64,000 nucleotides of DNA from Pedobacter sp. SL55 (lineage in GTDB: Bacteria > Bacteroidota > Bacteroidia > Sphingobacteriales > Sphingobacteriaceae): contig NZ_CP113059.1 of the NCBI RefSeq assembly GCF_026625705.1, positions 682,001 to 746,000 of the forward strand, given 5' to 3'. This document shows positions 36,311 to 42,105 of this stretch, one piece after another. Both the position numbers and the translations under genes were made by a program. Every line of letters starts with the position of its first letter. Position 1 is the stretch's first letter. The notes below the pieces were generated by a model. The model worked only from the letters and a program-made list of their open reading frames with translations. It made no database searches and was not told where the DNA came from.

Positions 36311-36763
36311 ATGACTTTTTCACTAAAAAGAACCACTTCTACTGATCCTGATTTCGTTAAATTAGTAGGCTATTTAAATGCCGAATTATCAAAAGTTAAT
36401 GGCAATGAAGATGCATTTTACGCACAATTCAATAAAATTGATCAAATTAACCACGTAGTTTTAGTGTGCGATAATAATAAACCAATAGCTTGCGGAGCCA
36501 TCAAACAATTTTCTTCAGCTGCAATGGAAGTAAAACGGATGTTCACTTTGCCAAACAACAGAGGACAAGGCGCAGCCAGTATTCTTTTAGAAGAACTTGA
36601 AAGATGGGCAAAGGAAATGGGCTACGAAAAATGTGTGTTAGAAACAAGTAAACGTCAACCCGACGCATTAGCGCTTTATAGCAAAAATGGATATGAAGTC
36701 ATTCCAAATTACGGGCAATACATTGGCATAGCAAACAGCATCTGTTTTGAAAAAACAATATAA
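36311..36763 (+). CDS. GNAT family N-acetyltransferase
   Basis: 150 aa, a single GNAT domain. The acetyl-CoA binding signature is MEVKRMFTLPNNRGQGAASI (residues ~76-95; R/Q-x-x-G-x-G/A type), followed by LEELERWAKEMGYEKCVLET and the C-terminal ALYSKNGYEVIPNYGQY. It transfers an acetyl group from acetyl-CoA to an amine; the substrate is unknown. It stands alone with its own promoter. Confidence 0.9.
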   Translation: MTFSLKRTTSTDPDFVKLVGYLNAELSKVNGNEDAFYAQFNKIDQINHVVLVCDNNKPIACGAIKQFSSAAMEVKRMFTLPNNRGQGAASILLEELERWAKEMGYEKCVLETSKRQPDALALYSKNGYEVIPNYGQYIGIANSICFEKTI

Positions 36764-36860: not shown

Positions 36861-36892
36861 TTTGCATATATCAAAATTATTACGCTCTTTTG
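36861..36892 (+). promoter_or_regulatory. Weak promoter candidate for the thr operon leader
   Basis: TTTG at 36861-36864 and CTCTTTTG at 36885-36892 are spaced like -33/-7 elements, but the TA of the -7 is missing. Transcription would then start about 20 nt before the leader peptide ATG. Low confidence. Confidence 0.3.
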
Positions 36893-36918
36893 AAGTGTAA
36901 ATAAAACACTAACAGAAA

Positions 36919-36993
36919 ATGATTTTTAACTCTTCAATTATTACCACAATTATTATTACCGGCGGCAAAGCTATCGGGAGCAACCTTGTGTAA
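36919..36993 (+). CDS. thrL: thr operon leader peptide (Ile/Thr-rich)
   Basis: A 24-codon ORF: M I F N S S I I T T I I I T G G K A I G S N L V, then TAA. Codons 7-14 (36937-36960) are all Ile or Thr. This is the hallmark of an attenuation leader sensing charged tRNA-Thr and tRNA-Ile, as in enteric thrL, and it lies 176 bp upstream of thrA. Its last codons overlap the antiterminator arm (36972-36979), so a ribosome reaching the stop codon would mask that arm. It is too short for routine ORF calling. The assignment is by codon content, position and RNA structure together. Confidence 0.85.
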   Translation: MIFNSSIITTIIITGGKAIGSNLV

Positions 36994-37055
36994 CATTGAG
37001 AAAAACATAAAAACACAAAAAGCGTCCCGATAAAAATCGGGACGCTTTTTTTTTT
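36972..37055 (+). promoter_or_regulatory. Transcription attenuator of thrABC (antiterminator and terminator)
   Basis: Terminator: AAAAGCGTCCCGAT (37018-37031) pairs over 14 bp with ATCGGGACGCTTTT (37036-37049), loop AAAA, T10 tract to 37055. Antiterminator: TATCGGGA (36972-36979), inside the leader peptide codons, is an exact complement of TCCCGATA (37025-37032), the terminator's left arm. A ribosome stalled on the Ile/Thr codons (36937-36960) leaves 36972-36979 free to capture the left arm, so transcription reads into thrA. With enough charged tRNA the ribosome covers it and the terminator forms. Confidence 0.85.
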
Positions 37056-37087
37056 AAAACGTTAAAACCTAATAAAAAATAAATAGA

Positions 37088-37140
37088 TGAAACCGTCTTG
37101 ATTGACAAAATCAAATCAGAGCATAATCAAGACAGCTTCA
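37088..37140 (+). other. Stem-loop between the attenuator and thrA
   Basis: GTCTTGATT (37095-37103) pairs with AATCAAGAC (37125-37133), with a flanking TGAA/TTCA pair beyond a small internal loop. It lies past the terminator, so it exists only on read-through mRNA. It may protect the 5' end or hold a processing site; its function is not known. Confidence 0.5.
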
Positions 37141-37168
37141 TTACCATTAAAAACAAATAAATAAAACG

Positions 37169-39616
37169 ATGAAAGTCCTCAAATTTGGCGGTACATCCGT
37201 AGGTACCACCGAAAACATTAAAACCCTTCTTAAGCTAGTGCAAGAAGAAAGAAAGAACGCAAATCCGGTGGTTGTATTATCGGCGATGAGCGGTGTAACC
37301 AATCTTCTTCTAGAAATGGCGGAGCTAGCCGAAAAAGGAGAAAGCTATCAAGACCAACTGAAAAGCATTGAGCAAAAACACTTCGATGTAGTAAAAACAT
37401 TATTGCCAGCAGCAGCTCAAAACCCTATTTTAACCAAGCTTAAAATTCATTTTAACGAGCTGGAAGATGCTTTGCAAGCAGTTTCTAGTTTGCAAGAACT
37501 CAGCTTACGCACTAGAGATTTTATTGTTAGTTTTGGCGAAAGGTGCTCAAATAGTATGGTAGCGCACATTGCTACACAGTATTTCGACAATTCATTGTAT
37601 GTGGATGGCTCTAAACTCATTAAAACCGATAGTGAGTTTGGAAATGCCCGAGTTAATTTTGAACTGACGGATACGCTAATCAAAGAATTTTACGAAGCAA
37701 ACAGCGACAAAGTTTTGTTCGTTACGGGTTTCATCGCCAGCAACGCCGCAAATCAAATTACTACACTTGGTAGAGGCGGCTCTGATTATACCGCAGCCAT
37801 TTGGGGTGCCGCTTTAGATGTTTCGGAGATTGAAATTTGGACAGACGTAAATGGCATGATGACTGCCGATCCACGCATCGTTAAAAAAGCTTTTTCATTA
37901 GATGAACTGAGTTACATTGAGGCAATGGAATTGAGTTATTTTGGGGCTAAAGTGATTTATCCACCAACCATGGTTCCGGCTTTTGCAAAAAAAATCCCCT
38001 TGGTCATTAAAAACACTTTCGAGCCAGAATTTGCTGGAACTTTCATCCGTAGCAACATCAAACCTTCCGATTTACCAATTAAAGGCATTTCTTCTATCAA
38101 CCAAATCAGCATCATTAACTTGAGCGGTAGTGGTATGGTAGGTAAAGCTGGTTTTAGTGGCCGTTTGTTCTCTCTACTATCCAGAGAACAAATCAACGTA
38201 ATTTTAATTACGCAATCCTCTTCTGAACATAGCATTACTTTTGCGGTAAATCCTGCAGACGCCGCTAGAGCGGTAACCATCATCAACAAAGAGTTTGAAT
38301 TAGAGCTAGCTGCAGGCAAATTAGCTTATCCAGAAGTTGAAGGCGAACTTGCGGTACTGGCCATCGTTGGCGAAAACATGAAACGTACACCTGGCATGAG
38401 CGGCCGTTTGTTCAATGCTTTAGGGAGAAACGGTGTTAATGTTAGAGCCATTGCGCAGGGTTCTTCAGAATATAACATTTCGGTAATCATCGGCAAAGAT
38501 GATTTGGCAAAATCTCTCAATGCAGTACACGATGCTTTCTACACCGATTTGAAACGCACCCTAAATGTTTATTGCTTAGGAACTGGAAATATCGGTAAAA
38601 CGATGTTTAAACAGATTAAAGAGCAAAGCCAATTTTTAGCAGAGAAAAACGATTTGCAAGTAAAAGTTGTAGGTATTGCCAATACCCGCAAAATGGTTTT
38701 TGATGCCAACGGAATTGATTTAGATAACTGGGAAAATACTTTAGAAGCAAACGGCGAACAAGCAAACCTTTCGGATTTTGTAGGCAAGATGCAATCGTTA
38801 AACTTGGCGAATAGTGTATTTGTGGACAATACCGCTAGTGAAGCTCCAATTCCATTTTATAAGCAAGTTTTCGAAAGCAGCGTTTCTATTGTTGCCTGTA
38901 ATAAAAAAGGTAACTCGGCAGAGTTTGCCCAATACAAATTATTTAAGGATACGGCCAGTAAACACGGTGTAGATTTTTATTACGAAACCAACGTGGGTGC
39001 AGGTTTGCCTATTATTGGCACATTGAAAAACCTGATGATGAGCGGAGACCGAATCGATAGAATCGAAGCGATTTTATCGGGAACAATCTCGTTTATCTTC
39101 AACAGCTTTAAAGGCGACAAGGAATTTTACGACATTGTAAAAGAAGCACAAGATTTAGGCTACACAGAACCAGATCCACGTGACGACCTCAACGGCATGG
39201 ACTTTATGCGCAAAATGCTGATTTTAGCTAGGGATGCAGGCTATCCTTTAGAATCAAGTGATGTAAAAATAGATAACATTTTGCCCGAAGCTTGCTTAAA
39301 AGCAGCAACGGTAGAAGAGTTTTATCAAGAACTTAAAAACAACAGTGCCTATTTCGAAAACCTAAAAAATACGGCTGAAAGCGAGAAAAAAGTATTGCGT
39401 TACATTGGCAAATTAGAAAATGGCAAGGTAGAAATCAGCTTACAAATGGTTGGCGAAGACCATCCTTTCTATGCACTTTCTGGAGCCGACAACATTATTT
39501 CTTTCGTAACCGATAGATATAAATTTCGCCCAATGGTAGTAAAAGGCCCAGGTGCTGGTGCCGAAGTTACCGCAGCAGGTGTGTTTGCAGATATTATTAA
39601 TGTGGCTACTCCTTAA
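37169..39616 (+). CDS. thrA: Bifunctional aspartate kinase / homoserine dehydrogenase I
   Basis: 815 aa. The aspartate kinase domain (1-~290) begins MKVLKFGGTSVGTTENI. Two ACT-like regulatory repeats follow (~310-450; SGRLFSLLSREQINVILITQ and SGRLFNALGRNGVNVRAIAQ). The homoserine dehydrogenase domain (~465-815) has the NAD(P) motif LGTGNIGKTM and the catalytic region GDRIDRIEAILSGTISFIFN. It catalyses the first and third steps from aspartate to threonine. It is the first gene of thrABC, behind the attenuator; threonine feedback through the ACT repeats is expected from the family. Confidence 0.97.
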   Translation: MKVLKFGGTSVGTTENIKTLLKLVQEERKNANPVVVLSAMSGVTNLLLEMAELAEKGESYQDQLKSIEQKHFDVVKTLLPAAAQNPILTKLKIHFNELEDALQAVSSLQELSLRTRDFIVSFGERCSNSMVAHIATQYFDNSLYVDGSKLIKTDSEFGNARVNFELTDTLIKEFYEANSDKVLFVTGFIASNAANQITTLGRGGSDYTAAIWGAALDVSEIEIWTDVNGMMTADPRIVKKAFSLDELSYIEAMELSYFGAKVIYPPTMVPAFAKKIPLVIKNTFEPEFAGTFIRSNIKPSDLPIKGISSINQISIINLSGSGMVGKAGFSGRLFSLLSREQINVILITQSSSEHSITFAVNPADAARAVTIINKEFELELAAGKLAYPEVEGELAVLAIVGENMKRTPGMSGRLFNALGRNGVNVRAIAQGSSEYNISVIIGKDDLAKSLNAVHDAFYTDLKRTLNVYCLGTGNIGKTMFKQIKEQSQFLAEKNDLQVKVVGIANTRKMVFDANGIDLDNWENTLEANGEQANLSDFVGKMQSLNLANSVFVDNTASEAPIPFYKQVFESSVSIVACNKKGNSAEFAQYKLFKDTASKHGVDFYYETNVGAGLPIIGTLKNLMMSGDRIDRIEAILSGTISFIFNSFKGDKEFYDIVKEAQDLGYTEPDPRDDLNGMDFMRKMLILARDAGYPLESSDVKIDNILPEACLKAATVEEFYQELKNNSAYFENLKNTAESEKKVLRYIGKLENGKVEISLQMVGEDHPFYALSGADNIISFVTDRYKFRPMVVKGPGAGAEVTAAGVFADIINVATP

Positions 39617-39622
39617 CTAACC

Positions 39623-39700
39623 CGTCATTGCGAGGCACGAAGCAATCTCTTCAACGTTTAACAAGATGCTTTAGGATTGCTTCGCAGGCTCGCAATGACG
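39623..39700. repeat. Palindromic repeat, family B, copy 2 (between thrA and thrB)
   Basis: A 78-bp inverted repeat with arms CGTCATTGCGAGGCACGAAG + CAATC and GATTGCTTCGCAGGCTCGCA + ATGACG. The right arm carries a small internal change (CAGGCT for TGCCT) relative to 26708-26782. It lies inside the operon, 6 bp after the thrA stop and 23 bp before thrB. Confidence 0.9.
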
Positions 39701-39723
39701 ACAAGACTATTAAAAGAAACAAA

Positions 39724-40704
39724 ATGTCAAATAATACAGATACACTTGTGGAACCTAAAAAACAGAAAGTGGATTTAAAAGAAATCAAAGTTTTCGCCCC
39801 TGCAACGGTAGCCAACGTGGTATGCGGCTTCGATGTACTTGGCTTTGCGGTAAATGCTCCAGGCGACGAGGCAGTGATGCGTTTGGTGGAAGAACCTGGT
39901 GTTCGCCTATTAAAAATCACTGGCGATGATGGCAAACTTCCGCTAAACAGCGATAAAAATACCGTGAGCGCTTCAGTTAAGCACTATTTAAGTCACATCA
40001 ACCGTGAGGATGTAGGTGTAGAAATTGAACTGCACAAAAAAATGCCAATTGGCAGCGGTTTGGGTTCTAGTTCGGCAAGTACCGTTGCAGGTTTGTATGC
40101 CATCAATCAATTGATGGGCAACCTACTAACCGCTAAAGAACTGGTTCCTTTTGCCATGAAAGGGGAAGAAATTGCTTGTGGTTATGGTCATGCGGATAAT
40201 GTAGCGCCAGCAATTATGGGTGGCTTTGTATTAGTACGCAGTTACGAACCTTTAGATGTAATTTCTCTTCCAGTTCCCGATGGCATGTTTGCGGCAATTG
40301 TTTATCCAGAAGTAGATGTACCTACCAAAGATGCCCGCCAAATGATCCGTGCTAAGGTGGCCTTAAAAGATGCCGTTACCCAATGGGGAAATGTAGCTGG
40401 CTTGGTAAGTGGCTTGTTCTTAAACGATATGGATTTAGTTGGCCGCAGCATGAAAGATGTTTTAGTCGAGCCAACGCGTTCTATCCTTATCCCAGATTTT
40501 GAGGTGCTACGCAAACTAGCGATGGAGAACGGTGCTGTTGGCTTCGGGATTTCTGGCTCTGGCCCATCTGTTTTTGCCTTAACTAAGGATGAAGAAAGTG
40601 CCAAGAAAATTACAAAAGCACAACAAATGCACCTGCATCAAATTAATATTAATAGTCAAGCTTACGTTTCTGAAGTAAATACAGAAGGACCGAGAACGTT
40701 GTAA
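39724..40704 (+). CDS. thrB: Homoserine kinase
   Basis: 326 aa from the ATG at 39724; the upstream reading to 39628 is repeat DNA. GHMP kinase family: IKVFAPATVANVVCGFDVLG at the N-terminus, the ATP loop MPIGSGLGSSSASTVAG, and the C-terminal GFGISGSGPSVFALT. It phosphorylates homoserine for threonine synthesis. It is the second gene of thrABC, separated from thrA by a family-B palindrome that might influence mRNA stability between the two. Confidence 0.96.
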   Translation: MSNNTDTLVEPKKQKVDLKEIKVFAPATVANVVCGFDVLGFAVNAPGDEAVMRLVEEPGVRLLKITGDDGKLPLNSDKNTVSASVKHYLSHINREDVGVEIELHKKMPIGSGLGSSSASTVAGLYAINQLMGNLLTAKELVPFAMKGEEIACGYGHADNVAPAIMGGFVLVRSYEPLDVISLPVPDGMFAAIVYPEVDVPTKDARQMIRAKVALKDAVTQWGNVAGLVSGLFLNDMDLVGRSMKDVLVEPTRSILIPDFEVLRKLAMENGAVGFGISGSGPSVFALTKDEESAKKITKAQQMHLHQININSQAYVSEVNTEGPRTL

Positions 40705-40797: not shown

Positions 40798-42105
40798 ATG
40801 CAATTCTACTCAACCAACAATAAAGATTTACGTGTTTCCTTTAAAGAGGCTGTTTTTAATAGCATGCCTTTAGACAAAGGTTTATACATGCCCGAGGTAA
40901 TTCCTCAATTACCTGCTGCATTTATCGATAACATTGAGCAATATTCGCTTACAGAAATTGCTTACGAAGTAGCATCAGCTTTGCTGAAAGACGAAATACC
41001 TGCCAACGATTTGAAAGCTTTGGTAGAGGAAGCGGCTAATTTTGATGCGCCTACAGTTCCTTTAAACGAGAACACTTTTGTTTTAGAGCTTTTTCACGGA
41101 CCATCGTTAGCTTTTAAAGATTTTGGTGCCCGTTTCATGAGTCGCGTAATGGGTTATTACCTTAAAGATGGCGAACAATTACTGGATGTTTTGGTAGCTA
41201 CATCGGGCGATACTGGCGGTGCTGTAGCTTTAGGGTTTTTAGGCGTAGCGAATACAAGAGTAACCATACTTTATCCAAAGGGAAAAGTAAGCCCAATACA
41301 AGAGCAACAATTAACCACCTTAGGGCAAAACATTAGAGCCATTGAAATAGACGGCACTTTTGATGATTGCCAAGCTTTGGTAAAACAAGCATTCGCTGAT
41401 GAAGAACTGAACAAAAAATTCCGTTTAACTTCGGCCAATTCTATCAATATTTCTCGTTTAATTCCGCAGACTTTCTATTATTTTAATGCTTATGTGCAAT
41501 TGAAAAGAAAAGGTTTTAAGGAGGTGGTATTTTCTGTACCTAGCGGGAATTTGGGAAACATTGGCGCTGGTTTATTAGCTTATAAAATGGGTTTACCAGT
41601 GAAACAGTTTATCGCTGCTACGAATGTGAATGATACCGTTCCTCGTTTCTTGGAGACTGGTGTTTATGAAACCAAACCATCTGTACAAACTTATGCTAAC
41701 GCGATGGATGTTGGCGCTCCTAGCAACTGGGTGCGTATCATGGATTTGTTTGCTGATGATGCAGATGCTTTGAAAAAAGTAGTAAGTGCTGCTCGTTTCA
41801 CTGATGAAGAAACTTTAGCTGCCATTAAAGCAATTGATACAAAATACGATTACATCGCTTGTCCGCATACGGCAATTGCTTATTTAGCAGTAGAAAAATA
41901 CAGAAACGAAACTGGTTACGATGGAGCTGCTGTATTTTTATCTACTGCCCACGCTTGTAAATTCCCCGATATTTTCCCTGCCGAGTTAGCTGCTAAAATT
42001 GAAATCCCCGCTTCGGTAAAAGAATTGGAAGGTAGAGCCAAACAAGCTGATGAATTAGATGTAGCATTCGAAGGATTTAAAAACTGGTTAATCAATAAAA
42101 ATTAA
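40798..42105 (+). CDS. thrC: Threonine synthase
   Basis: 435 aa. Fold-type II PLP enzyme: the N-terminal MQFYSTNNKDLRVSFKEAVF is typical; the PLP lysine lies in HGPSLAFKDFGARF (~residue 107); the phosphate-binding loop is SGDTGGAVALG, and SVPSGNLGNIGAG follows. It converts O-phosphohomoserine to threonine. Last gene of thrABC; a 15-bp hairpin follows at 42123. Confidence 0.97.
   Translation: MQFYSTNNKDLRVSFKEAVFNSMPLDKGLYMPEVIPQLPAAFIDNIEQYSLTEIAYEVASALLKDEIPANDLKALVEEAANFDAPTVPLNENTFVLELFHGPSLAFKDFGARFMSRVMGYYLKDGEQLLDVLVATSGDTGGAVALGFLGVANTRVTILYPKGKVSPIQEQQLTTLGQNIRAIEIDGTFDDCQALVKQAFADEELNKKFRLTSANSINISRLIPQTFYYFNAYVQLKRKGFKEVVFSVPSGNLGNIGAGLLAYKMGLPVKQFIAATNVNDTVPRFLETGVYETKPSVQTYANAMDVGAPSNWVRIMDLFADDADALKKVVSAARFTDEETLAAIKAIDTKYDYIACPHTAIAYLAVEKYRNETGYDGAAVFLSTAHACKFPDIFPAELAAKIEIPASVKELEGRAKQADELDVAFEGFKNWLINKN

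Follow-up and report, generated by a model that had tools for sequence, protein, structure and literature searches.

The window (the whole 64,000-nucleotide stretch of DNA that was analysed) contains a threonine biosynthesis operon in the order thrA-thrB-thrC, established by NCBIfam matches above cut-off. The closest named relatives, judged by the N-terminus of ThrA, belong to Pedobacter (96% and 88% identity), which places the window in this genus or near it. Upstream of thrA lie a short open reading frame (ORF) and a set of alternative RNA stems. The features are as follows:

36861-36892, forward strand: candidate promoter, weak (TTTG at 36861-36864, a 20-nt spacer and CTCTTTTG at 36885-36892)
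36919-36993, forward strand: leader peptide ORF of 24 codons, MIFNSSIITTIIITGGKAIGSNLV followed by a stop codon (translation; conserved in relatives)
36937-36960, forward strand: regulatory codons 7-14, an uninterrupted Ile-Ile-Thr-Thr-Ile-Ile-Ile-Thr (translation; conservation in the family)
36959-36977, forward strand: 1:2 hairpin of 7 bp, CCGG.GGC / GCU.UCGG, which holds arm 2 (minimum-energy fold of the leader)
36972-36981, forward strand: segment 2, TATCGGGAGC, putative 5' arm of the antiterminator, beginning 11 nt past the last regulatory codon (folding, complementarity)
36986-36991, forward strand: 5' strand of the inner stem within the antiterminator, TTGTGT (folding)
37013-37018, forward strand: 3' strand of the inner stem within the antiterminator, ACACAA (folding)
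37017-37031, forward strand: segment 3, the left terminator arm; 37022-37032 doubles as the 3' arm of the antiterminator (stem search, folding)
37036-37055, forward strand: segment 4, comprising the right terminator arm (37036-37050) and the T10 run (37046-37055) (stem search, folding)
37169-39616, forward strand: thrA, bifunctional aspartate kinase/homoserine dehydrogenase I (NF006959, 1027.7 bits, cut-off 726)
39721-40704, forward strand: thrB, homoserine kinase, start codon approximate (TIGR00191 and NF002288 above cut-off)
40798-42105, forward strand: thrC, threonine synthase (TIGR00260, 303.8 bits, cut-off 167.1)

A preliminary description of this DNA had proposed a 24-codon leader with eight Ile/Thr codons in a row. 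Translation confirmed the run IITTIIIT, and the ORF coordinates hold, with the stop codon at 36991. The candidate promoter resembles TTTG/TAnnTTTG, which we take to be the promoter pattern of Bacteroidota, except that its -7 box is without the TA. Little was gained from the strict pattern, which was found in 10/73 family loci and in 9/1460 shuffled sequences. A same-strand ORF (36311-36763, a GNAT-like gene) stops 155 nt 5' of the leader. A small hairpin, GTGT/ACAC, lies at 36895-36909, immediately 5' of the leader start codon; its equivalent in three Pedobacter relatives (L001, L004 and L005) reads GTGTA/TACAC or GTGTAC/GTACAC, as if paired changes preserve it. The gap between thrA and thrB (39620-39715) is occupied by a dispersed, partly palindromic repeat with 69 matches in the genome on both strands, which adds a spurious N-terminal extension to the thrB ORF.

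The terminator is a perfect 15-bp stem (37017-37031/37036-37050) with a 4-nt loop and a run of ten T residues, which ends 113 nt 5' of thrA. The preliminary description had the T10 tract right and gave the stem as 14 bp (37018-37055), one pair too short. The outer A5/T5 pairs of the stem consume half of the T run. This hairpin folds at -24.0 kcal/mol (z = -9.6; 0/200 shuffles as good). The competing structure involves an 8-nt arm near the end of the leader ORF, TATCGGGA (36972-36979), which had been put forward as an exact complement of the left arm of the terminator. It is indeed 100% complementary to TCCCGATA at 37025-37032, and a wider pairing of 36972-36991 with 37013-37032 is 70% complementary across 20 nt. 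The predicted antiterminator is larger than the original claim of eight pairs: TATCGGGAGC pairs with GC-G-TCCCGATA to give 10 bp with one bulged G, adding two further pairs across the bulge, and encloses the 6-bp inner stem TTGTGT:ACACAA. The segment 36969-37038, which stops short of most of the right arm of the terminator, folds at -18.4 kcal/mol (z = -5.1; 0/200 shuffles as good).

In the fold of the complete leader (z = -6.3; 0/200 shuffles as good), arm 2 is held by the hairpin at 36959-36977, which includes the end of the regulatory codons, while the terminator forms. As modelled, this 1:2 hairpin, the arms and the terminator provide all four segments of the classical attenuator scheme. 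When only the RNA from 36972 onward is free, as it would be with a ribosome stalled on the final Thr codon, folding favours the antiterminator as long as the terminator lacks its right arm. With that arm added, stability shifts in favour of the terminator. With 37005 onward free, as for a ribosome at the stop codon, folding leaves the terminator as the only structure that can form. Since the terminator is favoured at full length even with a stalled ribosome, antitermination would have to be kinetic. The difference in stability between terminator and antiterminator (-24.0 vs -18.4 kcal/mol) counts against reading the element as an attenuator. An inverted repeat at 37087-37141, between the terminator and thrA, has 17-nt arms that are 88% complementary and occurs once in the genome. 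By eye it is present in L001, with one arm differing, and absent from L002, and it was left aside as a part of the switch.

Conservation was assessed in 84 ThrA loci (E <= 1.5e-22) from 101 genomes of the window's family, 17 genomes with weaker or no ThrA matches being left out. The leader scan looked for ORFs of 8-60 codons with at least six Ile/Thr codons within eight, up to 450 nt upstream of thrA. Such a leader was found at 81/84 loci, compared with 10/420 shuffled and 2/84 reverse-complemented (antisense) regions, and at 73/84 it is followed by a terminator with a T run. The same scan in front of other operons of the relatives gave 0/13 for hisG, 1/12 for trpE and 1/13 for ilvD. The preliminary description had suggested looking at thrA of related genomes for conserved Ile/Thr leader ORFs and covarying stems, and would have abandoned the idea had neither been conserved. 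The leader counts, together with at least seven arm pairs in 72/73 loci (see below), bear it out.

We call a leader with a terminator/antiterminator pair class A, and an Ile/Thr leader with a GC hairpin and no recognised terminator class B. The class script assigned 73 family loci to class A, 4 to class B, 4 to leader only and 3 to neither. These exceptions (3/84 with no leader by the scan, 4 with a leader lacking a terminator above threshold, 4 of class B) also count against an attenuator.

The leader arm and the terminator are matched to each other throughout the family. The first 25 nt past the regulatory codons form at least five pairs with the left arm of the terminator in 73/73 loci and at least seven in 72/73 (minimum-energy fold), as against 542/1460 and 315/1460, respectively, when the same 25 nt are shuffled. 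Folds of the post-codon segments have a mean z of -3.6 relative to simple shuffles, with 62/73 at z <= -2. The longest exact match alone gives a less even picture: in 44/73 loci at most 5 of 100 shuffles were as good, and in the other 29 at least 6. The enclosed loop of the antiterminator makes at least four pairs in 64/68 family loci, with varying sequences (five of the 73 loci were left out of this count). Taken one locus at a time, support for the inner stem is weak: 10 or fewer of 100 shuffles did as well in 21/68 loci, and the median was 18.5.

The terminator arms fall into a CCTTCC type (62 loci), a TCCCGA type (7 loci, all in the window's genus) and others (4 loci), and the leader arms vary along with these types between lineages. 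In an arm-swap test, leader arms of the CCUUCC type paired with their own left arm at a mean of -14.9 kcal/mol and with UCCCGA-type left arms at -6.7 kcal/mol; those of the UCCCGA type gave -12.4 kcal/mol with their own and -7.8 kcal/mol with CCUUCC-type left arms. Eight terminators with CCTTCCGA were not counted as TCCCGA type in this test. For 61/62 CCUUCC-type and 7/7 UCCCGA-type leaders, pairing with the own left arm beat the average for the other type. When left arms were permuted among all loci, disregarding relatedness, the observed mean was reached in 0/2000 permutations.

The median distance from the last regulatory codon to the start of arm 2 is 12 nt (range 2-25, most 10-16). Measured from the stop codon, the position of the arm ranges from -23 to +16. 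This spacing, tied to the last regulatory codon and variable with respect to the stop, suggests that the stalled ribosome is the ruler. A GAGGAA core is present in 44/71 distinct loci and occurs in all three leader frames (GGR/GGS, RRK or EEG), in 21, 13 and 7 loci, with 3 more beyond the stop codon. The core is kept while the reading frame changes, which points to selection on the RNA rather than on the peptide.

A covariance model (R1) was built from 38 loci in genera other than the window's (alignment A2). Alignment A1 took 48 of the 71 distinct loci and A2 38 of 71, both chosen for clear arms, so R1 leans towards clear-arm loci. In the window, R1 gave the thrA element the top score of 53.9 bits (E = 1.9e-9), followed by 25.8 bits for the next match. 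The element was also best genome-wide, with E = 1.3e-7 among the 150 of 3417 first-look candidates that were scored. Second within the same scored set (35.5 bits, E = 0.001) was a site on the minus strand at 2267397-2267495, just upstream of ilvD, where an Ile-rich leader, MPLNTVIINNIIIIPQPREGNRCI, is followed by a terminator. In the scan of ilvD upstream regions, GGGAGG in the leader was seen by eye to face CCTCCC in the terminator; the scripted arm search for ilvD had started only after the final Ile of the complete peptide and so missed this arm. In the window's genome, trpE (1480564) is preceded by a Trp leader, MINKTNTWHWRSNSKESFVNDLCKI, and a terminator, and hisG (3151289) by a His-rich leader, MNLSLNHHFHLHHRHCGDM, with no terminator by the criteria used. 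By their sequences, four amino acid operons of this genome carry putative attenuation-type leader peptides. Given the leaders at ilvD, trpE and hisG, control by attenuation could be widespread among the amino acid operons of this organism.

The anatomy of the element, its conservation, the matching of its arms and their spacing are features of the loci themselves, and the thrABC element is, with a probability of roughly 0.9, a ribosome-mediated transcription attenuator, as predicted from its sequence. A classical attenuator combines a short leader ORF having a run of codons for amino acids of the pathway, an intrinsic terminator between this ORF and the first gene, and an exclusive antiterminator that shares the left arm of the terminator past the stalled ribosome. 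The first is evident from the ORF and its conservation, the second is present here and at 73/84 family loci, and the third is indicated by sequence and folding.

From this arrangement we infer that the leader is translated, how the switch would behave in time, which way it would control the operon and where transcription would terminate. RNA polymerase would transcribe the leader with a ribosome trailing on the 24-codon ORF. When charged Thr-tRNA or Ile-tRNA is scarce, the ribosome would stall within codons 7-14. Its footprint would then end at about 36972, which is about where arm 2 begins, so that arm 2 would be free to pair with the left arm of the terminator once this has been made. The antiterminator with its inner stem would form, and polymerase would continue into thrA. 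When both charged tRNAs are plentiful, the ribosome would reach the stop codon at 36991 and cover arm 2 and the inner stem; the terminator would form, and transcription would end at about 37050-37055.

Three other explanations were weighed. The leader could act on translation or via Rho, the ribosome hiding or exposing a downstream site, in which case the hairpin would not be the effector. Ile/Thr leaders without a recognised terminator, as in 4/84 family loci and in class B, would fit this explanation, but we consider it improbable for the window's element given that 73/84 family loci have a T-run terminator 3' of the leader and that the arm pairs with the left arm in those 73. A riboswitch or T-box, binding a ligand or tRNA and making the small ORF incidental, is less probable still. 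T-boxes control amino acid genes in other settings; however, only two tRNAs in the window reach an Rfam cut-off, the element is touched at the lax threshold only by Thr_leader (29.6 bits) and an unrelated sRNA model (E = 0.43), and the Ile/Thr run recurs in 81/84 loci. No T-box matched at the Rfam cut-off in the window, and none matched at the lax threshold in the element's locus (L081). That an ATT-rich ORF arose by chance in an intergenic region that is indeed AT-rich, next to an ordinary terminator of the GNAT-like gene whose same-strand ORF ends 155 nt upstream of the leader, is exceedingly unlikely in view of the conservation in the family, where shuffled and antisense regions rarely yield such a leader, the arms that match their own terminators and the genome-wide R1 match.

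The putative attenuator in the window was compared with the thr leader of E. coli K-12 (thrL; RF00506, Thr_leader). Both have a run of Ile/Thr codons in a leader of 21-24 codons before thrA, and in both arm 2 lies a few nucleotides past the last regulatory codon and is complementary to the left arm of the terminator, which is GC-rich and has a T run. In the identical scan, thrL gave a 21-residue peptide, an arm, GGTGCGGGCT, 6 nt past the last regulatory codon and the terminator arms AAAAAGCCCGCAC/GTGCGGGCTTTTT; in the window the arm is TATCGGGA, at 11 nt. The preliminary description had spoken of enteric thrL logic rebuilt with a different sequence, which is fair because thrL shows the same layout and its arm sequences differ. 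An inner antiterminator stem is possible in most family loci, whereas the E. coli segment showed none. The thrL peptide and many of the family leaders share the ending ITTG.

The Rfam model of the enteric leader does not take in the element, which scores 29.6 bits with a cut-off of 55. The best Thr_leader score among three family loci scanned was 41.7 bits, and 0/101 family genomes had a match over the cut-off. Thr_leader was tried as a detector of relatives and rejected: at E <= 1 it has matches in 101/101 family genomes, none over the cut-off. Of the six best matches listed, four are directly upstream of thrA. Many others lie elsewhere, with both strands matching at a single site, as would be expected of palindromic terminators. 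We take these matches as no proof of homology to the enteric leader. The element is thus predicted to work like Thr_leader, yet falls outside its Rfam membership. The Bacteroid-trp RNA (RF01692), presumably a tryptophan leader, had no match in the window at cut-off and none in 14 loci at the lax threshold.

Attenuation by Thr and Ile is a textbook case in enteric bacteria. Gene regulation in Bacteroidota has been charted less thoroughly, and Shine-Dalgarno sequences are seldom used in this phylum. The attenuator reading would extend the enteric case to one of its families, and the family loci, whose arms shift frame and change in step with the terminators, offer material from which an RNA family could be built.

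In its relevant passages, a 2010 survey by Weinberg et al. (PMC2864571) lists Bacteroid-trp RNA (RF01692) as a candidate cis-regulatory RNA of Bacteroidetes. For Flavobacterium psychrophilum, a passage of PMC9723704 reports strong clues for leader peptide attenuation upstream of amino acid biosynthesis operons; this passage names no operon, and the word 'threonine' is absent from the main text. The Flavobacterium thr leaders found here belong to class B and, unlike the window's element, have no terminator above threshold. Passages of PMC7366714 describe long 5' UTRs of B. thetaiotaomicron with short ORFs reminiscent of attenuation leaders. The authors of PMC2965389 (2010) state in the part consulted that, before their own case in Firmicutes, they knew of no leader peptide system demonstrated outside Proteobacteria and Actinobacteria. 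A Thr attenuator in Bacteroidota is described neither in the passages of PMC9723704, PMC7366714, PMC4833913 and PMC2864571 nor in those of PMC2965389, PMC10272879 and PMC10219788, and we therefore take the element as a new case of a known mechanism. An earlier prediction is possible, most likely in the 2010 comparative survey by Lopatovskaya et al. The mechanism is ordinary, and the element is well conserved and apparently little described in Bacteroidota.

Beyond the family sample, the class script was applied to 80 named relatives and gave 20 of class A, 32 of class B, 1 with a leader only and 25 with none; 2 had too little upstream sequence. A non-random phylum sample of 90 loci (30 chosen by score and 60 regions, about one per genus; 169/198 genomes had a match) contained 0 of class A by the scan, 21 of class B, 1 with a leader only and 68 with none. 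R1 found one class A element that the scan had missed, at thrA of one genome (G106, locus L216). Being frequent in the family and at 0/90 by the scan, plus one by the model, in the phylum sample, class A appears from these sequences to be mainly a device of the window's family. Scattered class A loci beyond it include those of Empedobacter, one Pontibacter and one Chryseobacterium (L019, L020 and L039).

Class B hosts include Flavobacterium, Salegentibacter, Lutibacter, 2/3 of the named Chryseobacterium loci and others. Their Ile/Thr run leads into a short hairpin with perfect pairing, ACCCC/GGGGT (variants ACGGG/CCCGT and AACCC/GGGTT), such that the last Thr codons lie in the GC hairpin and the stop codon is within or adjoining it. 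A conserved CATATmatCC follows about 10 nt past the hairpin, and no intrinsic terminator above threshold was detected downstream of the leader at class B loci. One locus (L074), for which the script chose another hairpin, was assigned to class B by hand.

The class B alignment (A3) took 33 of 48 reference loci from 57 finds, with 9 removed by hand. The model built from it (R2) found one site per genome at E <= 0.5, upstream of thrA, in 9/9 class B genomes. Seven of these had contributed a thrA locus to the model, the exceptions being G120 and G124. In the window's genome R2 found no site at E <= 0.5. RNAalifold gave no common structure for the free class B alignment, and the model from a shorter alignment has three pairs.

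We make a tentative proposal, to which we would give somewhat less than even odds: the Thr leaders of Bacteroidota may have one sensor, the Ile/Thr run, and two outputs, class A and class B, that replace each other between related lineages. If so, ribosome stalling in class B leaders would act on the operon by a novel route. The contrast between the classes poses a concrete question. Class B leaders are found upstream of thrA at L049, L052, L059, L201, L225, L227 and about 50 further loci.
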